Shown here piece by piece: positions 1,839 through 26,252 of a stretch of DNA of 28,687 nt. The position numbers and the translations under genes were made by a program. The notes beneath the pieces were generated by a model. It did no database searches and was not told where the DNA came from. It worked only from the letters and a program-made list of their open reading frames with translations. Numbering within the stretch: the stretch's first letter is position 1; each line of letters starts with the position of its first letter. Source of the DNA: a virus; IMG/VR virus record IMGVR_UViG_3300029998_000098, positions 1-28,687 of that record; one strand, written 5' to 3'.

Positions 1839-3897
1839 TGGCTTGTCTATCTTGTATAGCGCCTGCAATACCACTAGCCACATAGCCTTTTAACGTGGGG
1901 GTTACTTTTCGTTCCAACGTTCCCAAGCTCTGAGAAACCTCGCCCATCAAACGGGGGCTTGTACTTAACAAAGAAGCTGCTAACAAAGGGTTATGCCCAT
2001 AAAGTGACAATCCGCCTAATCCCGTTGCACCTGCAGCTTGTAGTCCCCTAGGCGTCCAGCTGCTCAACGACTGCCCTGCAATACTGTTGAGCATCTGGGG
2101 GGCCCCCGCATTTTGCATATCCTCAACAAGTTTAGTTCTATTCCCAAAGTTTGTATTGGCATTATTTCGGCCTATGCTCTGTAATTTCCTTAACGCCGTA
2201 TCGGTTGTAGCCTTTTCACCCAATGAAAAAGTCTTGGTAAGCTCCGTTAATTGTTTAGAAGCATCTGCATAATTCTTCATAGTTTCGGCATATCCAGGGG
2301 CTTGCTGCTCAATTGCACCCCGTACCGCATTATATGATCTATTCGCTACAGCACGTTGAGGCGTTCCAAAATTAGTTCCATCTTTAATATTTCCAATATA
2401 TTTTTTTAATGAGTCCAACCCTTCAATGGTATGGAATTGTGCGGGGTCTTGCTCAGACCAATCTGCAACCGCTTTTGTTATTTTATCCTGTACCTTTAAA
2501 GTTTTTGGATTTATAGAAACACCATTAAACGTATCTATCTTATTTGCATCTTGTACGGCTTGGGAAATGGGTTGAAAGTTTAGAGGGGTTTTGTCTTGAA
2601 AAATATCGCCAATACCCGATCTATAATTACTTCCCCTAACATTCGCTAAATTACCCAAAGCCGATTTCATCGTATTTATAGTATCCGACATAGGGATTGC
2701 TCCGCGCATATTTCCCTTTAAAGCTGCTGCTGCATCGCCACCCGCTTTCCCCGCTTGATATGCCCGCCCAATTGTATCTGTACCTGTACCTGTGGTTAAT
2801 CCTAATAAAGGGGCGGCTATTTTACTAGTACCTTTTAAAAGCCCTTTAGTTAATGCCCCTATGGGGGCAGCGATGGAACTGACATCAAATGCTAACCCTG
2901 CGGGGTCAGTGATAGCGGTTTGTTCTATATTATGCAACGAACCATATCTATCTTTATAGAATTTTCCAATTGAATCTGCTGTCTCCATAGCTTCAGGGGT
3001 TATCTTGTCTTCTTGCCCTGTTAAATGGGCAACCCCGCCTACAGCACCTTGCGTTAATGCCTTTATCGTATCAGAAGGGTGCAATAAAGAGCTGGCGGCT
3101 CCGATTACCGTATTTCCAATAGATGGGAGTATGAATTTCCCTATGTCACCTATACTATAATCTGTAGGTTCCGGACTATTAAGGCCTTCTTGCCCAGTGG
3201 ATTGCACAGGGTTTCCCACAAGTGTAGTGGGTTGTCCTAAAGCCGCCTGCAGTTGGGCATCAGACATTTTAGTGTAATCTTCTTGGGTAGAAGCGGGTTG
3301 TTGAGTTTGTGAAGTTTGTTGCCCAAGAGCGGCTTTAATCTCAGCATCGGACATTTTACTGTAATCTGCGGTATCCACAGGTACTTGTGAGGGGCTATCT
3401 CCTAAAGCGGCTTGTAAATCCGCATCTGACATTTTAGAAAAATCTTCTTGAGAAGCTTTATAAGGATCCTCACTAGCCGAAGCTGTGGGTATCATAAAAT
3501 CCAAGGCTTTTTGAGCTAGAGAAACCCTTCGAGTATTATTTTTTTCGTTAGCACCTGCGCGTTCAAAATGATTACTAAATGCATTGGTAGCGTCTTCAAG
3601 ATTGGATGTTGCCATTAGCTTCTGTTTAGCGCGGCTCTCCGTAGTATTTAACTCATGATTAATAAAGTCTAGTTGTGTTCCTGGGTCAGTGGCATAACTA
3701 CCTTGTCTTTGAGCAAAGGCATCCAGAGCTTTTTTACGGGGGCCTACCCATTGAGCTAATCCAAAAGCACCTGATTTTTTATTAATAATTTCAGGATTAA
3801 GACTAGACTCTTGAGTAAGATTCCCAGCAATAGCTGCCGCCTGATGGGGCTGATAACCCTTGTCCATAAAGTATTGAACAACATCTACTGATTTCAT
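1822..3897 (-). CDS. virion-associated tail lysozyme / ejection protein
   Basis: 691-aa structural protein whose first ~135 residues look like the phage tail lysozyme domain: GNLTQESSLNP carries the likely catalytic Glu30, followed by GAFGLAQW (43-50) and a helical remainder. Residues ~152-221 hold three copies of a short repeat, (D/E)(D/Y)(F/Y)(S/T)KMSDA(D/E/Q)(L/I)(Q/K)AALG, separated by Gln/Ser/Thr-rich linkers. The long C-terminal part has Gly/Ala-rich stretches and no domain I recognise. The inferred role is local peptidoglycan digestion during DNA ejection, as in internal or tail proteins of other podoviruses. The start overlaps the upstream gene by ATGA (3894-3897), indicating translational coupling. 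It is the last gene of the minus-strand operon in this window. Confidence 0.75.
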   Translation of the reverse strand: MKSVDVVQYFMDKGYQPHQAAAIAGNLTQESSLNPEIINKKSGAFGLAQWVGPRKKALDAFAQRQGSYATDPGTQLDFINHELNTTESRAKQKLMATSNLEDATNAFSNHFERAGANEKNNTRRVSLAQKALDFMIPTASASEDPYKASQEDFSKMSDADLQAALGDSPSQVPVDTADYSKMSDAEIKAALGQQTSQTQQPASTQEDYTKMSDAQLQAALGQPTTLVGNPVQSTGQEGLNSPEPTDYSIGDIGKFILPSIGNTVIGAASSLLHPSDTIKALTQGAVGGVAHLTGQEDKITPEAMETADSIGKFYKDRYGSLHNIEQTAITDPAGLAFDVSSIAAPIGALTKGLLKGTSKIAAPLLGLTTGTGTDTIGRAYQAGKAGGDAAAALKGNMRGAIPMSDTINTMKSALGNLANVRGSNYRSGIGDIFQDKTPLNFQPISQAVQDANKIDTFNGVSINPKTLKVQDKITKAVADWSEQDPAQFHTIEGLDSLKKYIGNIKDGTNFGTPQRAVANRSYNAVRGAIEQQAPGYAETMKNYADASKQLTELTKTFSLGEKATTDTALRKLQSIGRNNANTNFGNRTKLVEDMQNAGAPQMLNSIAGQSLSSWTPRGLQAAGATGLGGLSLYGHNPLLAASLLSTSPRLMGEVSQSLGTLERKVTPTLKGYVASGIAGAIQDRQATKKKK

Positions 3898-5165
3898 TTT
3901 ATTAATCCACGACGTTTAGCTTCTTCTAATAGAGCGGGGTTTACTCCGTTAGGTTGAGGTTGTGTTGGAGTGGTTTGCTTACTTAGTTGCCTCTTGTCTA
4001 ACTCAGCCTGTATTGCCGCTTTTCTTTCATTTTGCATTGTTATAGGGTCTTTGGGTATATCAGGTAAAGCGTTTCGATATCCTTTTTTGTATATGCTACC
4101 AATTTCATTATTGGTATTTACATATTGCTCGCGTAAAGCCAATAGTTTCTTCTGAATGGCTTCTGCCGTATCGGTCTCATTTGGCAGGAATGGTTGTAAG
4201 TATTTGTCCTCAGTAGGACTAACCGCCGCACCCGATATATCATGACGCTTGGCACTGGATATTTGTGATACGTCCGCTCTATATTTTGTCCCTTCAGGGT
4301 CAAGTCTTTGATTAATCTTGTCACCGCCCATCATCTGTAATCCAAATGATTTTGGCCGTTCTTGAACCGCTTTAAGAGCGGTATCTATTTGATTAATAGC
4401 CGACAAATTACCCGTATAGGCCGCTCTATGAGTTGGATTTATGTCCTTTATTAATGATTGCTGATACCTTTGCTCATCCCTTGTGTCTCTTGCATCCGCA
4501 CGTTGTTGGGCTTGGTTAGCTAAATCCAATTGCTTTTGTTGTACTGGAGTAACCGCCATGCGTTGATCAAGTGCGCGTTGTGCTATAACATCGCCATAAT
4601 TACCGCCGTTAGCCATTCCAGCATAGCTTAGATTGCCTTGCGCGTCTCTAGTCATCCCCGTTGGGATTGAACCCACATTATCTTTACGTTGTTGAAATGC
4701 CATAACGGTAGGGTCTTGAATATTTTTTTGTTCGGCGGTAGTTTGCAAATTATTAGCCATTGACGAATTAAAATTATCGTAAGCTTTAAGCCCTGACTTA
4801 ACCAATTCAGGATTGCTTGAACTAACCATGCGGCGGTTATTTGTTAAAAAAGCATGAATTGGATTATCTTTAGGGATGACTTTTAGCTGCTCATCGATGA
4901 CTCCGCCTATTTGTGCTCCTTGCTCTTTAGCGGCGGTATTTTCTAAATGCGTATTTAATTTATTACTTAAATAATTTGACAATAGACTGCCAATAACCCC
5001 TTTTAATACCCCGCTTCCACCAGGTTGAGGAGCTTGCACTTGTTGAGGTTGCTGAAAGAAACCGGCGGGAGGTGATTGATCAGGAAGCGGATCGGCACTG
5101 TCGGCATTAGAACCCTGCCCCAAGAACGATAGCATCGTTCCTAATCCTTCCATATTGTCAGCCAT
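3894..5165 (-). CDS. putative internal virion / ejection protein
   Basis: 423 aa, no family recognised with certainty. Residues 15-50 are Pro/Gln-rich, a hydrophobic stretch follows (VLKGVIGSLLSNYLSNKL), and the rest is mainly polar helix rich in Gln, Asn and Arg (around AQQRADARDTRDEQRYQQ). The C-terminus ends in a basic EEAKRRGLIK-like tail. Composition, size and its place just before the tail lysozyme fit the internal or ejection proteins that follow the tail genes in podoviruses; this is inference from context. The ATG at 5165 lies inside a 20-bp direct repeat. In the repeat sequence this ATG overlaps a TAA (TAATG), which suggests that before the plus-strand gene arrived this gene directly followed the 182-aa gene now at 6051-6599. 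Confidence 0.5.
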   Translation of the reverse strand: MADNMEGLGTMLSFLGQGSNADSADPLPDQSPPAGFFQQPQQVQAPQPGGSGVLKGVIGSLLSNYLSNKLNTHLENTAAKEQGAQIGGVIDEQLKVIPKDNPIHAFLTNNRRMVSSSNPELVKSGLKAYDNFNSSMANNLQTTAEQKNIQDPTVMAFQQRKDNVGSIPTGMTRDAQGNLSYAGMANGGNYGDVIAQRALDQRMAVTPVQQKQLDLANQAQQRADARDTRDEQRYQQSLIKDINPTHRAAYTGNLSAINQIDTALKAVQERPKSFGLQMMGGDKINQRLDPEGTKYRADVSQISSAKRHDISGAAVSPTEDKYLQPFLPNETDTAEAIQKKLLALREQYVNTNNEIGSIYKKGYRNALPDIPKDPITMQNERKAAIQAELDKRQLSKQTTPTQPQPNGVNPALLEEAKRRGLIK

Positions 5166-5179
5166 TACCGTTTCTCCAT
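5160..5179. repeat. left 20-bp direct repeat flanking the P63C cassette
   Basis: AGCCATTACCGTTTC followed by TCCAT. The copy at 6046-6065 is identical except for one base (C at position 16). On the minus strand this copy reads ATGGAGAAACGG-TAATGGCT, an ancestral-looking gene end (…KR stop) overlapping the start of the 423-aa gene. Confidence 0.85.
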
Positions 5180-5266
5180 TGTAATTAATAGTTAAATAAT
5201 ATTTTATTTTTTATTAAAATTATGTAATAATAAGTCTCACATAATATCCTTTGACGAGAATTAGCC
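5180..5266 (+). promoter_or_regulatory. AT-rich divergent leader, likely carries the P63C gene promoter
   Basis: Very AT-rich intergenic stretch between the divergent starts at 5165 and 5267. CATAAT near 5239 and the TATGTAAT region near 5220 are possible -10 elements, but I see no convincing -35 partner. A promoter is expected because the plus-strand gene has no other obvious source of transcription. The exact site is not resolved. Confidence 0.3.
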
Positions 5267-6031
5267 ATGCAAGACTTAGTATTTTTACAAAACAAAGAAG
5301 CCAGAATATCAACGCTGGAACTGTACAAACTTTTTGGGTATGTCAACCATTCAAGCTTAAAACAATTAATAAAGGAACAAGAATCCTTATTTTTAAGCCG
5401 AGGAACAATGCCTTTTGAGATTGTACGTGGACTATCTGAAACTAAGCGCGAAAACGAAGAATTAGGAAACACGCGGGGTGCAGGGCGTCCAACTAAGGGT
5501 TTTTTACTAAACAGACGACAATTTAATCTATTAGTAATGCTTTCCAGAACAACCGAAAAATCCTTACCCATAAAATTGGCGCTCGATGACCAGTTCCATA
5601 GAATGGAGCAGGCGCTCCAAAATGTTGTCGTCGTTTCTCCGCACATGGAAGCTATTCGCAAGTTACTCATGCTCGATGCTCCAAGCGAGTGGATTAAATT
5701 GTTTCCCGATGAGTTCTATATAGCATTGATGAGACTTTATGGCGACGAATTCAAAGGCAATAAAAGCACCCCGCCGTACTGCGCTCAGATAACAAGGCGC
5801 TGGATTTACGATGTGGTGCTCCCCAAAGAACTCAGCAATGAAATAAGCAAAGGAAAAGGCGAGGAAAAGAAGCATCAATGGTTCACCGAAAGCAATGGCA
5901 GGGAAGTTCTGCTACGACAAATATACCAAGTAACCGGCATAGCGAGGTCATCATATAGCCGAAAAGACTTTGAAGCGCGGTGCGCTACGCTATATGAGAA
6001 TGCGCCCTTGCAATTAGCGTTATTCGTCTGA
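5267..6031 (+). CDS. Rha-like / P63C-domain phage regulatory protein
   Basis: 254-aa protein. The N-terminal ~110 residues look like a Rha/antirepressor DNA-binding region (helix around STLELYKLFGYVNHSSLKQL, then a basic RGAGRPTKGFLLNRRQFNLL segment). The C-terminal half matches the P63C domain pattern: EWIKLFPDEFY, then RRWIYDVVLP, then EKKHQWFTE, then a RQIYQVTGIARSS segment. P63C proteins are phage and prophage antirepressor-like factors; their biochemical role is not settled. This gene points against the late operon and is bracketed by 20-bp direct repeats at 5160 and 6046, so it reads as an inserted cassette (moron) with its own transcription. The ATG at 5267 has only a weak GAG-type ribosome site. 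Confidence 0.72.
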   Translation: MQDLVFLQNKEARISTLELYKLFGYVNHSSLKQLIKEQESLFLSRGTMPFEIVRGLSETKRENEELGNTRGAGRPTKGFLLNRRQFNLLVMLSRTTEKSLPIKLALDDQFHRMEQALQNVVVVSPHMEAIRKLLMLDAPSEWIKLFPDEFYIALMRLYGDEFKGNKSTPPYCAQITRRWIYDVVLPKELSNEISKGKGEEKKHQWFTESNGREVLLRQIYQVTGIARSSYSRKDFEARCATLYENAPLQLALFV

Positions 6032-6045
6032 ATATTGAATGGGGA

Positions 6046-6065
6046 AGCCATTACCGTTTCCCCAT
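6046..6065. repeat. right 20-bp direct repeat flanking the P63C cassette
   Basis: AGCCATTACCGTTTC followed by CCCAT, 19/20 identical to 5160-5179. On the minus strand it encodes the last codons (M-G-K-R, stop TAA) of the 182-aa gene. It is also half of a short inverted repeat (6039-6046 with 6058-6065). Confidence 0.85.
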
Positions 6066-6599
6066 AATCTGTGAAATGAACCCATTAATATCCATCGGCT
6101 CTTGTTCGGCTTGTCCTGGATCACCTGCATTAACATAACCTTGCATTCCTTGTTGCATATTTAGCGGTTGCGGCGTACTTTGTCCCATGCCGGAATGTTT
6201 GGATTTAGATAGAAGTTGACCAAGCATTTGCAGATCACCACCTCCTTGTCCACCCATCTTACCCATTACTGAATCCATAATGCCGGAACCTGCGCCCGCT
6301 CCACCTGCACTTGCCGCTGGTGCAGCCGCCGCGCTTGTCGCCGGACTTCCAAACCCAGCTGCGCTACCCGCCGCACCTATTCCTTCAGCCGCCGGTGCCG
6401 CACTTGCCGCAGTTCCTAATGATGACATAGCGGGAGTTATTGCCGACCCCACAGCGGAGCCAATACCAGTAGCGGCTCCACCAGCAGCCGTGCCACCAAG
6501 TGCTGCTCCAGTACCCGCTCCAGCGGCAGTTCCACCAGCCGCACCACCCATTGCTCCACCAATAGAACTTAATGCCGCTCCAATAGAATCTATAAACAT
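6051..6599 (-). CDS. Ala/Gly-rich virion protein
   Basis: 182 aa, more than half Ala, Gly and Ser over residues ~8-105, with hydrophobic glycine-zipper-like runs (GGAAGGTAAGAGTGAALGG). A Gln/Met-rich C-terminus follows, ending NGFISQIMGKR. No domain is recognised. Similar low-complexity proteins occur next to ejection proteins in podovirus late operons and may insert in membranes during infection; here that is inference. The gene starts inside the end of the cupin-like gene (10-bp overlap). Its stop lies inside the right direct repeat, so its original downstream neighbour was probably the 423-aa gene. Confidence 0.55.
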   Translation of the reverse strand: MFIDSIGAALSSIGGAMGGAAGGTAAGAGTGAALGGTAAGGAATGIGSAVGSAITPAMSSLGTAASAAPAAEGIGAAGSAAGFGSPATSAAAAPAASAGGAGAGSGIMDSVMGKMGGQGGGDLQMLGQLLSKSKHSGMGQSTPQPLNMQQGMQGYVNAGDPGQAEQEPMDINGFISQIMGKR

Positions 6600-7009: not shown

Positions 7010-7905
7010 TACAGCAGTCCTGAACCTTTACCTGAACCGGAGTTCTGTCCATATCCCCAACCCGTTGAAGTACCCTGGCCCTGATTAAAACTATTACCAG
7101 AGTTAAGAACCGTTGGCGCGCCAATAACGCCTTGATAACTCTGCGCTTGTTGCCAAGGGGCGTTAGCGGCATTGAATTGCCCCATTCCATAACCTTGAAC
7201 GGCACCAGTATTGTTAATCCCTTGGTTAACCGTATTCTGTTGCTGTCCTAGCATCCCTGACATTAAGTTTTGACGGTTAAAATTGTTAGTATCCGCTTGC
7301 TGTGCTATATTTAATTTATTCTGTAAATCCTTATCAAAGGTATTGTAACCAGTCTGAGCTAGATTACTTTGTAGAGCATCATTAATACCACGCTCCGCTA
7401 TTCCTTGCGATACACCCTGTCTTGAACTTCCGGTCATCCCAGTACCTGCGGCTCTTGCATCCAGATTAGACATCATATTTTGCTGGGTTCTATTAGCATC
7501 CTTGATATATTGTTGCTTCATGGCATCGGCATAATTATTACCTTGGCCACCCATGACATCACCATAAATTTGCTGTGTAGCAGACGGCGTATTTTGGGAT
7601 TGCTGTAATGAGCTCATTAGTTGATTACCAATGCCCAGTCCTCCGTAGACGCCACCTTGCTGCATACCTTGATTGGCATTAGCCGCGCCTTGGGCTTGCT
7701 GATTCTGATAATTAATAGCTCCTGGCACCATGCCCTGGCTAGTACCCACACCTTGATTAAATAAGCCTTGCGCTCCACTATATAGGTTATTTAATGCGCC
7801 GCCATTAAATACATTTTGCCCAAATGTGCTACCACCTGAGCGTGAGTTTTGGGAATTGTTGCCATAAATGTTGAGCCCTTGATTTTGACTTGAACTTCCG
7901 CTCAT
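7009..7905 (-). CDS. Asn/Gln/Gly-rich virion protein
   Basis: 298 aa, strongly enriched in Asn, Gln, Gly and Ser throughout. A more ordered core (~130-190) contains YIKDANRTQQNMMSNLDARA and SQGIAERGINDALQ-type amphipathic helices; the C-terminus is glycine/serine-rich. No enzymatic motif. Proteins with this composition sit between tail and ejection genes in several phages and are usually annotated as structural. The start overlaps the end of the broken HNH/AP2 endonuclease by ATGA (7902-7905), so the endonuclease was inserted without disturbing this gene's start. Confidence 0.5.
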   Translation of the reverse strand: MSGSSSQNQGLNIYGNNSQNSRSGGSTFGQNVFNGGALNNLYSGAQGLFNQGVGTSQGMVPGAINYQNQQAQGAANANQGMQQGGVYGGLGIGNQLMSSLQQSQNTPSATQQIYGDVMGGQGNNYADAMKQQYIKDANRTQQNMMSNLDARAAGTGMTGSSRQGVSQGIAERGINDALQSNLAQTGYNTFDKDLQNKLNIAQQADTNNFNRQNLMSGMLGQQQNTVNQGINNTGAVQGYGMGQFNAANAPWQQAQSYQGVIGAPTVLNSGNSFNQGQGTSTGWGYGQNSGSGKGSGLL

Positions 7906-8417
7906 GATGGCTCTCCTATATTTAAGCCGTGGTTTTCGTGAAAGCCATATTTAATATTGGCTTGTTTCCTACATTTGATAGCATCTGCTAGATTATAAAA
8001 ACGGCCTAAATGTATTTCTTTATTGTTAAAATGGATTGATGACTTCCATTTATTTTTAGACTTATCAAAACAAACGCCATTAAATCCAGATTTATTGTTT
8101 TTCCTCAATGAGGTATTTTGTAAATTTCCAATAACAATCGTATCGCGTAAATTTTTCCATTAATTATTACAACCATTATGATCAAGATGATCTACGCATC
8201 CAGATGGAAACTTTCCTATCATATATAAAAATGCCAATCTATGTGCATAATAGCGTTCATAATCAATAGTAATTTCTATATATCCAGCCTTAGTATAACT
8301 ACCCATAATATCCCCAGCGCGGCTTCCTTTGCACCCAAATAGCCTTATAAAAATTCCTTTTTCAGGTATATAGTGAGCTACTTCAAATAATCGTTGTTGG
8401 GTTAATTCTTTTTTCAT
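7902..8417 (-). pseudogene. HNH/AP2 homing endonuclease interrupted by an in-frame TAA
   Basis: One continuous reading frame of 172 codons broken by a TAA at 8162-8160. The upstream part has the start of an HNH nuclease (YYAHRLAFLYMIG, then VDHLDHNGCNN). Reading through the stop gives WKNLRDT…NLQNTSLRKNNKSG, exactly the normal continuation of HNH_3 enzymes, followed by a C-terminal AP2-type DNA-binding segment (GFNGVCFDKSKNKWKSSI, then LGRF, then KYGFHENHG). A basic residue is usual at the stop position, so a single substitution such as AAA to TAA would explain it. The gene is fitted between two virion genes with ATGA overlaps at both ends (8414-8417 and 7902-7905). It probably makes only an inactive 85-aa fragment; the second half has an ATG at about 8108 but no nuclease core. 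Confidence 0.8.
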
Positions 8418-17749: not shown

Positions 17750-19276
17750 TTAATTATTATAAATCATCCTATTCATTCCAGAGTTGTATATTTTAGGTAG
17801 CCCATTAAGCTCTGCTAACTTCTTCTCTGTTAGTCCATCTTCCCATAATAAATCAGGATCATTTTTAAACCTCTTCAGTCTATAACTGAACTTATGTACT
17901 CTATTACCTCTGACTAAGTATTTGTAGTCAGGTTTAAGGTATTTATCAAATACAAATCCAGCCTTAGCATAACTTCCACCACTGAAAGTATCTAAGTCAA
18001 CAAAGCTAACGATCTCACCATTAATACCACAGTTTTTAAGAAGCTTTGAGAACCCACCAATCACCTTTATAGATGTAGCATAACGCGAAAGAACATTACC
18101 ATTGAATGCCATTACAGCAACCAAATCACCATTATTTCTCAAGCTAATTAACTTATTCTGATTACATGAACCTTGTATATGCCATGTATTTAAAAAATTC
18201 TTACACTCCTCAACAGAAGGATTAAAATCAATTGTACATTTCCTTGCAAATACTCTTTTATCATCACACTTCCCAACAGCATTAAGTATTATCCTTTCAA
18301 TAATAGGCCATCTGTTATTTATATCATCTTCATACAATGATATAAGTCTTATTCCCATTGATTCACAAGCTAACCTTTTAGATTCGTGATATTTTGCATC
18401 TACTTTTAAATTAGAGTGCCAATACACACCATTAACTTCTATCGCTATATTGCATTGAGGTATTACTATATCAAGTTCCATTGGAGATATAGTTGTTCTA
18501 CAATTTGCAATATACTCAATATTATTATTAATCAGGAAAGTTCTTATTTTTCTTTCAATAAAAGATGTGGTATGGTTAATTATTTCTATACCATATGATT
18601 TAACAGCCATCCTAACCGTCCACTCTACACATCCAAGCATCCTTGCTATTTCATATAATGATAGTTTCTCATTAACATATTTATCAATTAACCAATCCTT
18701 GTCTTTTAATAAAATATAATCTTCTGGATTCTTACCATTAACAGCAAATATAGCTTCTGAGTTACTTCTAATATCAACACCAGCTTCCTTTAGCCTATTG
18801 ATAATAACACCTTGTGAACAACCTTCTTTTTTAGCTATTACGGCAGTTGAAGTTAAGCTTAAATAACTATCGATAATTGATGGAACATCTATCTTTATCC
18901 TTGGTGTGTAGCTAGCTGTTATACTTACCTTCCTTGCATCACGCAATGACCTTATAGGTATATCGAATGACATCAAAGCTAGCCTTACAGTTCTTGGTGT
19001 AGTCTTTATCTTATCAGCAATCTCAAAAGTTGAAAGCTGTTTTTTGATATAAGCATTCTCAAGCCATTTTTTATTCTTGAGTAATGCAGTATTGCAGCCC
19101 AAAGTCTGTTTTGACTCGCCTGCTGTTCTTTTAGGTATATTGAATAATTTTAACTTATTCAATACTGTGACATTACTACATCCTAGTAATGTAGACAATT
19201 CATAAGAATTTTTTCGATTTACAATGTATTGCTCAATTAGCCAATCTTTGTCTATTTTAACTCTTTCTTTACTCAC
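17750..19276 (-). CDS. Vsr-like (EDxHD) free-standing homing endonuclease
   Basis: 508 aa. Four helix-turn-helix repeats occupy residues ~1-230 (KDWLIEQYIVN, KKWLENAYIKK, VPSIIDSYLS and KDWLIDKYVNE each begin one), giving modular DNA recognition. The nuclease core follows: ISPMELDIVIP (E267, D269), AIEVNGVYWHS (E280, H287), KYHESKRLACESMGIRLISL and YEDD. This is the EDxHD pattern of Vsr-related homing endonucleases such as I-Bth0305I. The last ~165 residues are a conserved-looking accessory domain ending in GLPKIYNSGMNRMIY. It starts at GTG 19276, with an AGGAG ribosome site partly buried in a 15-bp hairpin (19285-19325). It sits between the capsid gene and a terminator, so it is an insertion at the end of the capsid transcript. 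No intron is attached. Confidence 0.85.
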   Translation of the reverse strand: MSKERVKIDKDWLIEQYIVNRKNSYELSTLLGCSNVTVLNKLKLFNIPKRTAGESKQTLGCNTALLKNKKWLENAYIKKQLSTFEIADKIKTTPRTVRLALMSFDIPIRSLRDARKVSITASYTPRIKIDVPSIIDSYLSLTSTAVIAKKEGCSQGVIINRLKEAGVDIRSNSEAIFAVNGKNPEDYILLKDKDWLIDKYVNEKLSLYEIARMLGCVEWTVRMAVKSYGIEIINHTTSFIERKIRTFLINNNIEYIANCRTTISPMELDIVIPQCNIAIEVNGVYWHSNLKVDAKYHESKRLACESMGIRLISLYEDDINNRWPIIERIILNAVGKCDDKRVFARKCTIDFNPSVEECKNFLNTWHIQGSCNQNKLISLRNNGDLVAVMAFNGNVLSRYATSIKVIGGFSKLLKNCGINGEIVSFVDLDTFSGGSYAKAGFVFDKYLKPDYKYLVRGNRVHKFSYRLKRFKNDPDLLWEDGLTEKKLAELNGLPKIYNSGMNRMIYNN

Positions 19277-19391: not shown

Positions 19392-19659
19392 TCAAGCAGT
19401 TACGGCGGCGGCTGGGTTAATATCACCGATTATGGCATGAGACTTCTCAGTTAATACTTTCAAAGTCCAATCAACTGACATTTGCTTATTTTCAGCAAGC
19501 CCAGTCTTAGCCAAGTCTTCCGTTCTATACCCCTTAAGATAAGAAATGGATAGATAGGAAGGGTCAACGATAAATACATCAGCAACCTGGGCTGCACCAG
19601 AATCAGTGTGTGTTTTTTGGAGCCGATTAGGCACCAGTTTCAATGTACCAAAATCTGTA
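19392..19659 (-). CDS. major capsid protein exon 5
   Basis: Starts T|ACAGATTTTGG (completing the Val codon), encodes TDFGTLKLVPNR to the C-terminus and ends TGA. The open frame continues upstream to 19853, but that part is intron and is not capsid sequence. Confidence 0.88.
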
Positions 19660-22600
19660 CGATTTGTTAACACAGCTTTTTTAATTACTGTTTCTATATG
19701 TCTCCATATAGGCCGGACTATATCATCAAATAATTTTTGCACCCTTGCTTTGATTTTCAAAAGCTGTAAGTATTTGTAAGTTAGTTGCACAATGTTTGCC
19801 GCCTTTAGATATTGGTACGATATGGTCAACATTATGTTTAATACCCGTTTCAATATTCTTCAACTGACATTGTTTATAAATCTCTTTTATGGCGGTTATA
19901 TCAGCATATTCAGGCATTAGTTCCTTAAGTTTCCGCTGTCTTTCTGCACATAATCTAGCGCGTTCTGCCTTTATTTCCGGTCTATGCTTATTTGAATGAT
20001 ACCAAGCCGTTACGCTTGCTCTAATTCTTTCTGCCTAACCGTTGGCATACTTTATTCGTCTAGCTTCATTCACTTCAATTTTTCTATTCGAGTGATAGGC
20101 TCTAATAGTTTCTCTATTGCGTGAATCGTAAGAGCTTACAATTTCCTTACGTTTATCAGGATTACTCTTAGCCCATTTACTAGCATTATGCTTATAGGCT
20201 TCTGAATTATCTTGATAATGTTTTCTATTTTTTTCATGTTTACATTCTAAACAATACTTTTGAACATAACCATTACGAATATAAAAAACACTTACTTCTT
20301 TTTCAATATTACAAATGTTACAAACTTTACTTGTGGAGCACTCTTGGGTTTTCATCATCTTTCACCTTATTTATATCTAACTTATGTATATTATAGTACA
20401 TAATGCACTAAAGTCAGTTACAAATAATAAAAAAGATTGTATAACCTAGTCTCTGAACCTTCGACTTGTCACCAAGCCGCTTGGCTGCTGATTTTCTCTA
20501 TTTAACTGTTTTCAAGCGTTCACGCTCATTCTTACGAATCACGTTGTAGCCAGTTAATCTAACAAGACATTCCAGCAATTCACTCCATTTTTTATCGTCT
20601 ATGCTACACAATTAACAAAGACGTTCACACTACCCAGCGCAGTCGCTTGCTCTGCACTCTTGCCCTGATCACTCATCAACGTGGCGACACGGGCTGATGA
20701 AGTAAATAGGTATTCACTGAACTTTCTAATTCTTTTTGCATTATTAGCCACTTTTTAATTACTGGCTACTTAAGCTCTCGCCTAAGAATAGACTATATCA
20801 TCAACTATTTTATTTCCTTTGTAACGATTTTCAGAAGCTGGAATAACTCTTAAATTAGACTCAACATGCAACCCACTAACTGTTTTACCCCTTAAAGGCC
20901 AGTAATGATCGACATGATGTTCAACACCTGTTTCTATAGTTTTTAATTGGCAATCTTTATAAATTGCTTCAATCTTCTTACTATCAGAATAAACTACGGT
21001 TCTTACAAATTTTGCAGCGCGTCTTGCTGCATTTTTTGCGTTAGCCCTTTCAGGATGTTTTTTAAAGTACATACGATTATATTCGTTCCGCTTATCTCGA
21101 CATCTAATACACGAACCTTTACTTAATATAGCTATCTTGTCTTTATTTTTGAGTCTCCACAAATAATTGCGATTATCTGCATATTCTCTATTTTCACTAT
21201 ACCATTTAGCATCACATTCTTTCTTATACTCAGCATTCTCAGTACGCCATTTGATGCTATATAATCTATATTCTTCTCTATGAGCTTTCCTATATAAAGA
21301 TGTTTTCATCAAAATAAAATCTTTATTTTCTTCATAATATCTTTTGCTGTTTTCTTTTACCCTTTCTTGATTTAATTTAGTCCATTTATTTCGGGCTTCA
21401 TTAGCTCTTTCAGGATTAGCCAATCTATATGCGGATGTAACTTTAGCCTTGCAAGCCTTGCATTGATTAGTATTTTTTCCAAACAACAAAAAATCTTTTC
21501 TTTCGTTACATTTAGAACATATCTTAGTTGCAGTGTGTTCGTGGGTATTCATCATCTTCACCTTTTAATTAATTCAAGTAACATTATATTTGATACTCTC
21601 AGAATTACAAATAAAGATTGTATTACCTAGTCGTTGAACCTTATTCCAATCACTTGGAATCTTGGCTGCTGATTGTCCAATTTCCTATATTTTCAAACAT
21701 TCACGTTTACCGTTACCAGTTGCGTTGTAGTTATAGGAACTCTAAGGAGTTTCCAGCAATTTACACTGTTTTTACTTGTCACTCACGCGGCAAGGGCGCA
21801 TTCAAAGTTTACGCCAGGTATGCTCATCATTACCGTGGGATCACCACCATCTTGATAAACAGCCTGTACTGCATCACGAACCAATGTTTCAGTAAGAGCG
21901 CGAGTAGCAGTAGGCACGCGAGCGACAGTGAGCCCAGTAGAACCACTGAAGCCGCCAGCAGTACCACCATAGTTGTGACTAGCAAGCCAGCTTGGTAAGC
22001 CGCCGATTTTACCTGCAACCGCTGCGCCATCGTCTGCAACTGAAGCTTGGTTTTGCAAGCAGATTGCATCGACATCACGTCTTAACTCCTGTTGGCGCCT
22101 CATAACCTGATAAGACGTTTCTTTGGTTCTGCCAATGACATCAGAAGCATCTGCTCTAAAAGATACTCTGACAACTTTTTGTGATATTTGACTCTTTTCA
22201 TTATGAATCCTTTTTTAATTTTGGATTCCTGCGCTCTCTCGAGGCAGAATAGACTATATCACCATCTGAAAAACTATTACTTTTAGCCCTGTTTTCGGCT
22301 GCTGTTAATATTTGTAAATTTGCTGCGACATGTAATCCACAAACCAACTCATGTACTAGTGGGTAATAATGATCAACTTGGTACTCAATACCCTCATCTT
22401 CTGACATCATTCTTGCTTGTATGTAAACTAACTTTATTTCTTCAAAGTCAGCCCATTCAGGGGTAGCTTTTTCATTAATAACATTTCTATTATTACGATA
22501 CATTGAGAACTTTTCAGGATTAGCTTTTCGATAAGCTTGCATTCTTTTTGCAATCTTATCTTTATCTGCTGTCTTGTGCCATTCTCTGCTAACTTTAGCT

Positions 22601-24357
22601 AGCCTTTCTCTATGGTTTTCTCTAAATGCAATCTGTCTAGCCTTAGTTGCTATTGGATCGCGTTCCCGATATTCCCTAGCTGCTTGCCTTGTTTTATCCC
22701 TGTTTGCTTCACGATATTTTTTAGCTGATTCTATTTTAGCCGTCGAATCCCTTAAATACTTTTCATTATCTCTTTCTTTTATACAAATTTTGCATAAAGT
22801 CTGATGCTTGTATTCACTTGTAGGATTTTTCCTTCTTAAATAAAAATCATCTAATGGTTTTAAAATATTACATCTTGTACAAACTTTTTCAAATGTTCCG
22901 CGCTCTTGTGTTTTCATAAACTCACCTTTTTGTGTATGAAACCATTATAAATGATTTCCTACACAATTCAAGAGAGTCAGTATAACTTAGTCGTTGAACC
23001 TTTATCCTGTCACCAGGACACTTGGCTGCTGATTGCCATATAAGCCGATATTTTCAAGCATTCACGCTTATCTTTACAGATTACGTTGTAGCTATCGACC
23101 CTTAAAGGTATCCCAGCAATTCACGGAATTTTACAACCACTAGTTAATCCAATGGTTGCCCACTCTATTGCCTATTGCAGTGTTATTTCCTGAGGCGTCT
23201 GAGCCGTCAACCACTGCATTAGTGACATCAGGTGTTGCTAATACATCTAAAGTCCACTCAGCATATTCGTTTGTATGGCTATCAGTTCCTACCATATCAG
23301 TGAATGGGAGAGGGATACGTGATATATCAAAAATTCGATTCATCACGTCTTCACGGATTACATAATGTTACGCTATCTTGCGATAGGGTGGCGGCTTTTT
23401 ATCCACCACTCTTATAGTTTCCTATAAGTTCAGCATATATCATCAGTTAATAAACGATTGCGTTTAGATACATTTTCAAAAGCGGTTAATATTTGTAAAT
23501 TACCTTCCCAATGAAGCCCACTTACAAACTCACCTTGCAATGGTATTATATGGTCAACGTGAAACTCTATCCACATTAACTTACTAAGCCTTTTTGCTTC
23601 TTTATAAATTGCATCAATTTTACCGTTATCCTTCCAAGAAACGCTTGCATTGATTTTCTTGGCTCTATAGTTCGCATTACAATATCTTTTTATGTCCAAT
23701 GCCTTTTCTGGGTTTCTTAACTTCCACGCTTTTGTACGTTTAGAAGCAATTCCAGGATTAGCAAGTCTCAAGTCCCTTTGATGCTGTTTAATATATTCAG
23801 CATTTTCTTTGTAATGTTCATCTCGGTATTTTTTAACATGTTCGGCATTTTTTATATCCCAATTTGTTTTGGATGCTTTTAAATGCTCTTTTCCAAGTCT
23901 TGCTTTGGTGGCTCTAGCTGTCGCTTTTGCCAATTCGTAAGCTTCTGGATTTGTGATATTAAGATTCCTTCTTTTTTCCTTTAGACATTCTTTGCACTGA
24001 GATAAGTACCCATCAGCACTCGGTTTGTTTTTAGAAAATAACGAATAATCTTTTTCTACAAAACATGTCACACATCGTTTTTTATCTGCACTGCGCTCTT
24101 GGTTTTTCATTGTCTTTCTATCTCACCTTATTAACGTTATATTGTAATTATAGCGTAAGAGAAGATGTAATGATAGGGTAAGACTGTATAAACTATGCGT
24201 TGAACCTTACAATCATTTCTGATTGTCTTGGCTGCTGATTACCTTCAACTTAATGGTTAGGCTTCCCAGCAATTCACAGTGTTTTAAAAGGGCTAATCTA
24301 TAACCCTTTGTATGTTGCCGCTTTCAAATCGGCGCTATCTAAATTTGCTGAACTCAA
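19392..24357 (-). CDS. major capsid protein, SU10/DUF5309 type, five exons split by four group I introns
   Basis: Spliced gene: exons 24357-24303, 23360-23152, 22193-21811, 20731-20615 and 19659-19392. They sum to 1032 nt and encode 343 aa. The start is TTG with TAAGGA 5 nt upstream; an in-frame TGA just upstream excludes a longer start. The joined protein has all landmarks of DUF5309 capsid proteins: GLIREDVMNRIFDISRIPLP, EYAEWTLDVL, AIGNRVGNHSQIS, QQELRRDVDAI, GGDPTVMMSIPGVIRKFSEY, VTDFGTLKLVPNR, DVFIVDPSYLSISYL, GYRTEDLAKTG and a final VLTEKSHAIIGDINP. It builds the icosahedral shell. Every unspliced reading hits a stop within 3-10 codons of the 5' splice site, so splicing is required. Exon borders were placed from P1 and P10 pairing and agree with the reading frame at all four joints. 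Confidence 0.92.
19726..20358 (-). pseudogene. intron 4 HNH homing endonuclease interrupted by in-frame TAG
   Basis: A 211-codon frame broken by TAG at 20037-20035. Before it: a zinc-finger-like N-terminus (VCNICN, then YCLECK) and basic helical repeats. After it, in the same frame (ATG 19917 is exactly 40 codons on): more basic helix, then the HNH core IYKQCQLKNIETGIKHNVDH, then IVPISKGG and NLQILTAFENQSKG. Reading through the stop gives a protein of the same layout as the other three intron enzymes, so one substitution probably killed it. The start has AAGGTGA 3-9 nt upstream and a TATAAT hairpin leader. The C-terminal fragment could be made alone from ATG 19917, but would lack the DNA-binding half. 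The gene ends just before the P7 3' strand. Confidence 0.8.
20382..20403 (-). promoter_or_regulatory. hairpin with TATAAT, leader of intron 4 HNH gene
   Basis: TTATGTA (20382-20388) and TACATAA (20397-20403) pair perfectly. TATAAT is in the loop region (20395-20390), 21 nt before the AAGGTGA ribosome site (20368-20362). Confidence 0.5.
20615..20731 (-). CDS. major capsid protein exon 4
   Basis: 117 nt, starting A|ATTAGAAAG (finishing the Val codon begun in exon 3) and ending GTCTTTGT. Encodes IRKFSEYLFTSSARVATLM to GSVNVFV. The 3' site of intron 3 is the least certain of the four; AATTAG or the next A (three codons later) both keep frame. Confidence 0.85.
20782..21555 (-). CDS. intron 3 HNH homing endonuclease
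   Basis: 257 aa from ATG 21555; an upstream in-frame GTG overlaps the ribosome site and is not used. Zinc-finger-like Cys pairs begin the protein (ICSKC, then CKAC), and a second pair (CIRC) lies mid-protein. A long basic repeat region follows (RxxYxxNRE patterns), likely lying along DNA. The C-terminal HNH core reads IYKDCQLKTIETGVEHHVDH, then YWPLRG, GLHVESNLRV and SENRYKGNK. It would cut intron-less capsid alleles so that the intron is copied in by repair. Its last codons (DDIVYS) are also the S strand of the intron core, so protein and ribozyme share bases. Confidence 0.88.
   Translation of the reverse strand: MMNTHEHTATKICSKCNERKDFLLFGKNTNQCKACKAKVTSAYRLANPERANEARNKWTKLNQERVKENSKRYYEENKDFILMKTSLYRKAHREEYRLYSIKWRTENAEYKKECDAKWYSENREYADNRNYLWRLKNKDKIAILSKGSCIRCRDKRNEYNRMYFKKHPERANAKNAARRAAKFVRTVVYSDSKKIEAIYKDCQLKTIETGVEHHVDHYWPLRGKTVSGLHVESNLRVIPASENRYKGNKIVDDIVYS
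21571..21606 (-). promoter_or_regulatory. hairpin with TATAAT, leader of intron 3 HNH gene
   Basis: AATTC/GAATT plus AAGTA/TACTC (one wobble) form an imperfect stem with a bulge. TATAAT (21588-21583) lies in the loop, 18 nt before the AAGGTGA ribosome site (21564-21558). Confidence 0.45.
21811..22193 (-). CDS. major capsid protein exon 3
   Basis: 383 nt, starting AGTCAAATATC (Ser-Gln-Ile-Ser) and ending CCTGGCGT. Encodes the SQISQKVVRVSFRADASDVI, QQELRRDVDAI, GGLPSWLASHNYGG and GGDPTVMMSIPGV parts of the capsid protein. Confidence 0.88.
22201..22917 (-). CDS. intron 2 HNH homing endonuclease
   Basis: 238 aa. Same plan as its relatives in introns 1, 3 and 4: Cys pairs (VCTRC, CKIC) at the N-terminus, a long basic region with REAN/REYRERD/RENHRERL repeats, and a C-terminal HNH core (EIKLVYIQARMMSEDEGIEY, then QVDHYYPL, GLHVAANLQILTAAENRAKS). 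The start has AAGGTGA and a hairpin leader with TATAAT. The frame runs through the P7 3' strand (GDIVYS codons) and on for 14 more residues to a stop only 7 nt from the 3' splice site, so almost the whole 3' part of the intron is also coding. Expected to promote homing of intron 2. Confidence 0.88.
   Translation of the reverse strand: MKTQERGTFEKVCTRCNILKPLDDFYLRRKNPTSEYKHQTLCKICIKERDNEKYLRDSTAKIESAKKYREANRDKTRQAAREYRERDPIATKARQIAFRENHRERLAKVSREWHKTADKDKIAKRMQAYRKANPEKFSMYRNNRNVINEKATPEWADFEEIKLVYIQARMMSEDEGIEYQVDHYYPLVHELVCGLHVAANLQILTAAENRAKSNSFSDGDIVYSASRERRNPKLKKDS
22930..22966 (-). promoter_or_regulatory. hairpin with TATAAT, leader of intron 2 HNH gene
   Basis: Two stacked stems: TTGTGTA/TACACAA (7 bp) and GAAACCATT/AATGATTTC (8 of 9, plus a G.U). 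TATAAT (22949-22944) is at the loop. The AAGGTGA ribosome site (22928-22922) follows immediately. The best formed of the four intron leader hairpins. Confidence 0.6.
23152..23360 (-). CDS. major capsid protein exon 2
   Basis: 209 nt, starting TA|ATCCGTGAAGAC (finishing the Leu codon) and ending GGCAACCAT. Encodes IREDVMNRIFDISRIPLPF to NRVGNH. The second base of the exon and the four following match P10 of intron 1 exactly. Confidence 0.9.
23430..24110 (-). CDS. intron 1 HNH homing endonuclease
   Basis: 226 aa. N-terminal Cys pairs (RCVTC, then CKECLKEKRR), a basic helical middle with RDEHYKENAEYIKQHQRDL-like repeats, and the C-terminal HNH core: AIYKEAKRLSKLMWIEFHVD, then HIIPLQGEFVSGLHWEGNL and TAFENVSKRN. 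The start at 24110 has AAGGTGAG 13 nt upstream and the TATAAT leader element. It ends TGA inside the S strand of the intron (GATATATGCTGA), so the last codons double as ribozyme core. It should promote homing of intron 1 into the start of capsid genes. Confidence 0.88.
   Translation of the reverse strand: MKNQERSADKKRCVTCFVEKDYSLFSKNKPSADGYLSQCKECLKEKRRNLNITNPEAYELAKATARATKARLGKEHLKASKTNWDIKNAEHVKKYRDEHYKENAEYIKQHQRDLRLANPGIASKRTKAWKLRNPEKALDIKRYCNANYRAKKINASVSWKDNGKIDAIYKEAKRLSKLMWIEFHVDHIIPLQGEFVSGLHWEGNLQILTAFENVSKRNRLLTDDIC
24131..24158 (-). promoter_or_regulatory. imperfect hairpin with TATAAT, leader of intron 1 HNH gene
   Basis: TTAACG…/…CGTAA with TATA/TATA inside gives a weak AT-rich stem. 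TATAAT (24152-24147) lies 17 nt before the AAGGTGA ribosome site (24129-24123). The weakest of the five leader hairpins, but the spacing matches. Confidence 0.4.
24303..24357 (-). CDS. major capsid protein exon 1
   Basis: 55 nt: TTG start, 18 codons (MSSANLDSADLKAATYKG) and the T of the next codon. TAAGGA lies 5 nt upstream. Without splicing, translation stops two codons later at TAG. Confidence 0.85.
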
Positions 24358-24409
24358 AATAATCCTTACGAATCAATCACTTATTAGGTGTGATTCCCTT
24401 ATGAAAAAA

Positions 24410-25120
24410 TTAATGTTTCACAGGTGTGTTAGTCACCTGAGTAATTTTATCTCTTCCGTGATTAGCATGATAACCATATTCTACTTCAGCGGCGCGCCTT
24501 GCGTTAGCAGCTTCTTCGATTATATAGTATTGCCCTAAAAATATATCTTTTCCATTATACCTTATACCAGCACGCCATTTACCCACTTTAGAACAAAAAT
24601 GTACGCCAGTAATACCGCTTTTATTGTTTACAGCGAGTTCGTGATTGCGTGCATTGTCTATTGAGTTGACATTCCTAATATTGCATAAACGGTTATCTGA
24701 ACGTACACCATTAATATGGTCTACTTCATCTGGCAATGAACCATTAAGCCATAGCATTATTAGTCTGTGTAATCGATACTGTTTTCCGTAGAAAGAGGCG
24801 ATTACATAACCATAATAATCTATTCGTCCAATAATATCGCCAGCCTTTCGGCTGTTTTTCTTATGAAAAGCACGATAATCTTTTGCATAGGTACATAGTC
24901 CTGTAAGGGCATCATAATTCATAAAGTCTTTGATGCTTGCTTGTGTCAGTTCTATGTCAAGTTTGTCATCGGTATAAGTTGGATTATCAAGCTCGAACTT
25001 ATCACGAGCATCTATAGTCTGATCAAGTTCACTAAACACGCCAATATATACTTTCTTGCAATCAAGCCTACAAGTAACTTCCCACTTATTAAGTTTATTA
25101 TTTCTATGTATGGCTCTCAT
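24410..25120 (-). CDS. free-standing HNH endonuclease with two AP2-type domains
   Basis: 236 aa from the ATG at 25120, one base after the scaffold stop (TAAGATG); an earlier in-frame ATG lies inside the scaffold gene and is unlikely. The N-terminus is an AP2-like segment (MRAIHRNNKLNKWEVTCRLD, then KKVYIGVFSELDQ). The central HNH_3 nuclease has YRLHRLIMLWLNG, EVDHINGVRSDNRLCNIRN and SIDNARN. The C-terminal AP2 segment is GITGVHFCSKVGKWRAGI, then IFLGQYYIIEEAANARRAAE and YGYHANHG. It lies between scaffold and capsid genes, so it is placed to cut near the same capsid locus as the introns. It is not in an intron and ends 52 nt before the capsid TTG. Confidence 0.85.
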   Translation of the reverse strand: MRAIHRNNKLNKWEVTCRLDCKKVYIGVFSELDQTIDARDKFELDNPTYTDDKLDIELTQASIKDFMNYDALTGLCTYAKDYRAFHKKNSRKAGDIIGRIDYYGYVIASFYGKQYRLHRLIMLWLNGSLPDEVDHINGVRSDNRLCNIRNVNSIDNARNHELAVNNKSGITGVHFCSKVGKWRAGIRYNGKDIFLGQYYIIEEAANARRAAEVEYGYHANHGRDKITQVTNTPVKH

Positions 25121-25121
25121 C

Positions 25122-26252
25122 TTAAAAACCTTGATTTTTAAGCAACTCTGCAACGGCATCTGTCTCAGCGGCATGTTTTGCATAACCGCTTGAAGCCTTT
25201 GCCTTACTGGTCAATTGCTCAAGTTTAGTTTTTGTTGCTTTCGTTACGCTTGTAGTTTTTTGAAACTTCCCTACAGGCTTCGCGATCTTCTTATCAGCGA
25301 TGGTTTTACCAGCACGATATTTCTGAGCATCTTTAATGAGTTCTAAAATACGGGCATCTTTTACATCGGCAAACTCTTGAGCGGTAAATCCGTAGTTGTC
25401 AGATACAAAGGTTTGCATAGCGCTTAATGCGGTCTTAAACTTGTTTGTATCCGTCCACTCAGGATTATTTTCAATCGCTTTCTGAACTTGTTCTTGTATA
25501 TATGCTTGCGTTTTTTGTCCAAACTCTTCTTGATACTTGGATTGCTCTTGCTGTTTAACAGTATCCGTAGCGGATTTAATCTTACTTATTTCATCAACAC
25601 GGATGTTGTAGTCTTGTACCAGTGCGGCATACTCACCAGGATTTTGAAAACGTAAAGCGTTCCAATCTATGCCTTGATATTCTTTAACCAAAGAATTTTC
25701 AAGATAGGTTGTCAGTGTTTCAGCATCTTTAATCTTGGTGGCATACTCTTGAAGAACCTCATTTCTTTTGGCTTCAAGTTGTTTTCTTTCTTCAGCCAGT
25801 GCTTTGCTCTTCTGTGTATTCGACTTGTTATTTTGGTATCCAGCTATTAAATCATTAGTTGGAACCACCTCAACCTTGCCATCTACTTTAATCTTGAAGC
25901 CCGCAAAGTCTCCCTCATCATCAAGAACAACCTTATCTTCCGGTACGCCTAATACTTTTGACCAAGTTGTATCTTCGTCATTAGCATTGTCTTCATCGTC
26001 TTCATCGTCTTCATCGATATCCACAGTGTGGGTATCTTCATTACCTTCTTCATCCTCATCACTATCCATTGAATCTTCACTTGGGGGTAATTCCGGTTCG
26101 GATTCTGGAGCTTTAGACTTAGATTGTTTAGGTTCTTTCTTTTCAGCTTGCGGAGCTTGATCTTCCATCAACAACGCTGAAATTTGGTCAGTTACACTTC
26201 CAGTCGCCTGTGATGGGTTAGACTCGGTTGTGACAATTGTTTCATTATTCAT
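25122..26252 (-). CDS. scaffolding protein
   Basis: 376 aa, Ala/Lys/Glu-rich and largely helical. The first ~100 residues are low complexity: Lys/Pro/Ser/Glu then a very acidic run (DEDEEGNEDT to DEDDEDDEDNANDED). An ordered segment follows (KVLGVPEDKVVLDDEGDFAG), then coiled-coil regions around SKALAEERKQLEAKRNEVLQ and VKQQEQSKYQEEFGQ. The basic C-terminus (KKIAKPVGKFQKTTSVTKAT) is the usual capsid-binding end of scaffolds. Its position between portal and capsid is classic for scaffolding proteins. The ribosome site AAGGTGA lies 6 nt upstream. The acidic run is coded by three perfect copies of a 9-bp unit. Confidence 0.78.
   Translation of the reverse strand: MNNETIVTTESNPSQATGSVTDQISALLMEDQAPQAEKKEPKQSKSKAPESEPELPPSEDSMDSDEDEEGNEDTHTVDIDEDDEDDEDNANDEDTTWSKVLGVPEDKVVLDDEGDFAGFKIKVDGKVEVVPTNDLIAGYQNNKSNTQKSKALAEERKQLEAKRNEVLQEYATKIKDAETLTTYLENSLVKEYQGIDWNALRFQNPGEYAALVQDYNIRVDEISKIKSATDTVKQQEQSKYQEEFGQKTQAYIQEQVQKAIENNPEWTDTNKFKTALSAMQTFVSDNYGFTAQEFADVKDARILELIKDAQKYRAGKTIADKKIAKPVGKFQKTTSVTKATKTKLEQLTSKAKASSGYAKHAAETDAVAELLKNQGF
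25989..26015. repeat. three tandem copies of a 9-bp unit in the scaffold gene
   Basis: GTCTTCATC three times without change (25989, 25998, 26007), coding Asp-Glu-Asp on the minus strand. Such in-frame repeats can gain or lose units by slippage, changing the length of the acidic run. Confidence 0.8.

Follow-up and report, generated by a model that had tools for sequence, protein, structure and literature searches.

The window, by which we mean the whole 28,687-bp stretch of an IMG/VR virus record analysed here, comes from an uncultured tailed phage that is podovirus-like, encodes an SU10-type portal protein and carries its late genes on the minus strand. Its virion genes are related to those of Cronobacter phage Ss1 and Vibrio phage VA-RY-3 and, more distantly, to those of many Pseudomonas podoviruses. 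A single plus-strand gene sits between the minus-strand genes for a 182-aa and a 423-aa protein, and around it we observe two copies of a 20-bp direct repeat, AGCCATTACCGTTTCTCCAT on the left and AGCCATTACCGTTTCCCCAT on the right, which are 19/20 identical and spaced 886 bp apart (Table 1). The unique insert between them measures 866 bp (5180-6045), and insert plus one repeat 886 bp. Further along, the window holds an unusually intron-rich major capsid gene, which appears to be split into several pieces (19392-25183, minus strand), of which those at 19428-19655, 21843-22193 and 23152-23355 match the Ss1 capsid protein. Between the pieces lies group I intron sequence containing HNH-type ORFs, and Rfam gives four Intron_gpI matches (best 6.1e-11). 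A 508-aa ORF at 17750-19276, in which helix-turn-helix-like segments recur and which weakly matches a Vsr-like nuclease, probably encodes a homing endonuclease.

Table 1. Features of the insert and its flanks, in window coordinates (L004 is the related record IMGVR_UViG_3300031902_000051).
Feature	Position	Strand	Remarks
423-aa gene, virion region, downstream neighbour of insert	3894..5165	-	homologue in L004 with 74% protein identity
Left repeat copy	5160..5179		on the minus strand, likely RBS (GGAG) and TAATG start for the 423-aa product; L004 has its only copy at 5987-6006
AT-rich 87-bp leader of inserted gene, presumed promoter	5180..5266	+	no good sigma-70 match
254-aa gene, inserted cargo, Rha-like N-terminal and P63C C-terminal domain	5267..6031	+	from Pfam, PHROG 1136 and model
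14-bp tail of insert, ATATTGAATGGGGA	6032..6045	+	
Hairpin from insert end and right repeat, just past P63C stop codon, without U tract	6039..6065	+	z -2.7 for 71-nt region
Right repeat copy	6046..6065		on the minus strand, last codons and stop of the 182-aa gene
182-aa gene, Gly/Ala-rich, virion region, upstream neighbour of insert	6051..6599	-	homologue in L004 with 88% protein identity

Read on the minus strand (ATGGRGAAACGGTAATGGCT), the right copy encodes the residues M G K R and the stop of the 182-aa protein, whose gene ends at 6051, and the left copy supplies a likely ribosome-binding site (CTCC on the plus strand, 5174-5177) together with the ATG of the TAATG junction at which the 423-aa protein starts (5165); the frames are as the first-pass annotation had read them. 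Since the repeat also contains the likely ribosome-binding site, this site, the stop and the start have been duplicated together, all three packed into about 13 bp. The repeat has only two copies in the window, with no third copy found at up to three mismatches across its whole length (0 expected in shuffles). Four pairs of 20-mers with at most one mismatch occur in the window, the other three all lying within the intron/HNH region, and first-order Markov versions of the window contained no such pair in 28 of 30 trials. When random windows of the same geometry were drawn from 98 related loci, the score of the repeat was reached in 12 of 5,880 draws, among which five were the window repeat itself or that of another P63C locus (L007, see below) and five came from one repeat-rich locus.

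The cargo is predicted to be a Rha-like/P63C regulator. Its 254-aa product matches Pfam P63C (PF10546) at 9.7e-15, with 55.4 bits against a gathering cut-off of 26.1, and Phage_pRha (PF09669) at 1.7e-6, just below the cut-off (28.9 versus 29.9 bits); PHROGs 518 and 2657 likewise indicate a Rha-like protein, and PHROG 1136 is matched as well. The structure predicted by AlphaFold (mean pLDDT 76) is similar to that of Myxococcus phage Mx8 p63 in BFVD (E = 1e-6); a fold search in the PDB gave nothing significant, and the defence-system library no match. Proteins related to it are scattered through numerous phages and prophages. From the opposite strand, the gene is probably expressed independently, and its product would act on the transcription of competing or resident phages in an antirepressor or superinfection-type role, a putative function read from the domain family. 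No sigma-70-type promoter match was found on the plus strand upstream of the gene, and no terminator was called in the insert despite the strong hairpin after the P63C stop codon. The insert holds one ORF with no transposase match, no terminal inverted repeats were reported at its ends, no recombinase was found within or beside it, and no nucleotide relative of it was found in the phage collection. In codon usage it falls slightly beyond every one of 18 slices of equal size taken from the late genes of the phage itself (distance 0.182 versus 0.123-0.176; GC3 0.44 versus 0.33), a modest effect.

The first-pass annotation had predicted that removing the 886 bp would restore a normal overlapping junction and had proposed searching relatives for it. 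Such a junction is found in L004, where a single repeat copy is present and the homologous genes overlap exactly as predicted, base 6001 being where the upstream one ends and the downstream one begins. In blastn, L004 5986-6006 is used twice, one time for each flank of the cassette, and the L004 flanks are collinear with the window on both sides of the junction. The L004 record contains no P63C gene and no trace of one. The sole mismatch between the two repeat copies is a change in the left copy, the right copy matching L004; a reading of this change (GGGG to GGAG) as an improved Shine-Dalgarno sequence was rejected, the computed pairing being no stronger (-6.4 vs -7.1 kcal/mol). Two small HNH-like ORFs between the genes for a 150-aa and a 298-aa protein (7902-8417) are likewise missing from L004; entry of this HNH insertion by the mechanism of the P63C insert was rejected, as no duplication was found there.

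Two further contigs, 3300030943_000159 and 3300030294_000201, carry the P63C gene with both repeats and differ from the window at a single base in more than 11 kb, so that an assembly accident is unlikely; at this site, the gene has thus not been seen without its repeats, which the annotation had named as evidence against its reading. P63C genes without repeats do occur, at other sites in other phages. No cassette-free contig was found in the near-identical lineage, all three known contigs keeping the cassette, and no loss was observed at the present day; that the cassette can be lost cleanly when the two repeats recombine, as had been suggested, is plausible. A search for further empty junctions with a protein profile and a degenerate DNA pattern returned only L004.

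With one known empty-junction relative of clear DNA homology, the direction of change has to be judged from distant outgroups by gene order. In Ss1, the positional equivalents of the two genes lie after a homologue of the 298-aa gene (E = 4e-27) and are uninterrupted, with a TAATG junction (GGAGGCAAGTAATGGCCGG) and an GGAGGCAAGTAATGGCC overlap; in VA-RY-3, they are uninterrupted and 1 bp apart. The sequence homology of the small gene is weak (E = 2e-6, low complexity), and positional equivalence therefore rests mainly on gene order. On this comparison, gain in the window lineage is likely rather than loss, given the uninterrupted TAATG junction at the equivalent position in Ss1.

The cassette is, in our view, likely to be a moron: a foreign unit of 866 bp with one gene, which joined the late operon through recombination whose end points overlapped, once the window and L004 lineages had separated. 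Behind this reading stand the single-copy overlapping junction of a relative, its presence in duplicate around the insert and the movement of P63C cassettes in other phages. The entry with junction duplication proposed in the first-pass annotation is supported by the collinear junction in L004 and the uninterrupted outgroup equivalents. The duplication can be read directly from the two junctions, and it would have arisen through illegitimate recombination, or repair of a staggered break, with a 20-bp overlap between the two end points in the phage genome: either a staggered break would have been filled in, or two illegitimate crossovers would have taken place on different genome copies, duplicating the bases between the end points. 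Stop, start and ribosome-binding site lie within a stretch of about 13 bp, so that one of the virion genes would be damaged by an insertion duplicating fewer bases than these, and twenty would suffice. Because only an insertion that duplicates at least this stretch leaves both structural genes whole, selection would presumably have kept this one.

Sequence comparison shows that P63C genes also travel as single-gene cassettes in other phages. In the regions compared between Pseudomonas phages D14C and YMC11/02/R656, the only shared DNA is a 974-bp block (99.3% identical), which comprises the P63C gene, a leader and a terminator-like hairpin between dissimilar flanks, and the D3-like phage phi1 is without this block at that place. 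Upstream of the gene in D14C (locus L020), a 68-bp stretch (3818-3885) recurs at 97% identity elsewhere in many Pseudomonas phages (F10, CF24b and others), and in D3-like phages different genes stand behind this same leader; it looks like a shared moron promoter. Three more loci (L007, L033 and L034) share a block of about 845 bp, which starts with the -10 box and ends with the stop codon of the P63C gene, and no other DNA similarity. The leader of about 105 nt that precedes the gene in these loci (L007 about 4760-4889, L033 725-855, L034 4546-4676) is better conserved (95-100% identical) than the block in its entirety (85-88%). It folds well, has a U run at its end and no match in Rfam, and is possibly an attenuator or regulatory RNA.

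In L007, the block lies between two exact 22-bp copies of TTTCAACAAGCGGTCTGCCCTT, which occur nowhere else in that locus, are part of a small array of 27-bp units and share no sequence with the 20-bp repeat of the window. This has the appearance of another P63C insertion, independent of that in the window and with a duplication of comparable length. No close empty site was found for it, and no full-length match to the L007-type cassette was found in Moraxellaceae genomes, tested as its source. A rule that P63C genes carry flanking repeats was rejected, since L007 and the window lineage are the only ones conspicuous among about 44 loci, and the majority of P63C genes at other sites have no flanking repeat above chance. 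A 13-bp repeat in L036 was rejected as a further case, its left and right sites resembling two copies of a longer intergenic element (hairpin plus GCCCTGTGCTTT). This element recurs in L036 at 4690-4800 and 5563-5640 as AAGAGTAAAGAGT, a hairpin whose stem is changed but whose loop retains TGACA, and then GCCCTGTGCTTT. It is distinctly unlikely that P63C regulator genes form a mobile single-gene family that enters phage late operons by a dedicated mechanism, with 20-22-bp target duplications (the window and L007) and, in some lineages, a conserved leader RNA of their own.

Recombination between the 20-bp repeats of an old cassette would yield the exact junction of L004, and the two states could in principle reflect a clean loss in that phage. 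We regard this as unlikely: both Ss1, which has the same TAATG overlap, and VA-RY-3 have uninterrupted equivalents, L004 retains nothing of the P63C gene, and the two copies would still need an earlier duplication. The repeats themselves could alternatively have no connection with the insertion, being functional sites (ribosome-binding site or operator), as the ribosome-binding site inside them might suggest, or an assembly artefact. With no third copy in the window, a single copy in the empty relative and the same arrangement in three assembled contigs, we give this next to no credence.

Site-specific recombination, with the 20-bp repeat as attachment core and a cassette or circle integrated by a tyrosine-type recombinase acting in trans, would be in keeping with the length of the repeat, with the palindromic nature of the inferred circle junction (AATGGGGAA-11 bp-TTCYCCATT) and with the 22-bp repeat of L007. 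However, the palindrome is equally explained as a 3' hairpin, the cassette has no recombinase in or beside it, the L007 repeat is of unrelated sequence, and the 20-mer is absent from every fetched locus that does not belong to this phage group, which makes this origin very unlikely. Transposition of a non-autonomous element with target-site duplication is highly improbable, even though direct repeats are seen at the insert ends against a single-copy empty site and P63C cassettes occur at several unrelated sites, since these cassettes have no conserved ends, no transposase and duplications that are variable or absent.

The preferred reading, a moron acquired with overlapping end points, can be set against known systems. 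Morons are described as segments that one phage has and a related genome lacks, and they typically consist of an ORF together with a promoter and a terminator (PMC3029335); a position antisense to lytic genes has been called characteristic of them (PMC7067206). The cassette resembles them as an extra gene on the opposite strand of a late operon, located between two genes that are contiguous in relatives (L004, and the positional equivalents in Ss1 and VA-RY-3), with a composition unlike that of its host phage; the duplicated junction, in contrast, is outside the usual description of morons. The cassettes of D14C and YMC11/02/R656 have the same Rha-like plus P63C architecture (about 36-38% identical) as single-gene units, in D14C between structural genes, but lie on the same strand as their neighbours, have a terminator-like hairpin after the gene and lack a flanking repeat. 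HK97 gp73 and the KilA-N-P63C protein of mEp234 share the P63C C-terminal domain and are encoded beside lysis and terminase genes; they differ in having KilA-N instead of a Rha-like N-terminal domain and in lying on the same strand as their neighbours. The mycobacteriophage mobile elements MPME1 and MPME2 are likewise small inserts recognised against an empty relative, but have inverted repeats and 6 bp added at the target (PMC3029335), neither of which is seen in the window insert.

The occupied and the empty junction being both known, the window offers a clean example of moron acquisition and shows how an insertion into tightly overlapping phage genes can succeed, namely with the junction duplication that it needs; the L007 cassette with its 22-bp repeat raises the question of whether recombination with overlapping end points is a common moron route. 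A close precedent has been described in mycobacteriophage LRRHood, where a 1.35-kb segment with a Cluster A1 repressor is bounded by 29-bp direct repeats of which relatives have one copy (PMC3029335, Fig. 7). Both inserts carry a phage regulatory gene and are flanked by direct repeats that are located at the end of a gene and found once in close relatives; the LRRHood segment has four genes versus one here, and its repressor family has experimental support. The window case is a further member of this LRRHood/moron kind, to which it adds a repeat made up of the overlap between two virion genes.
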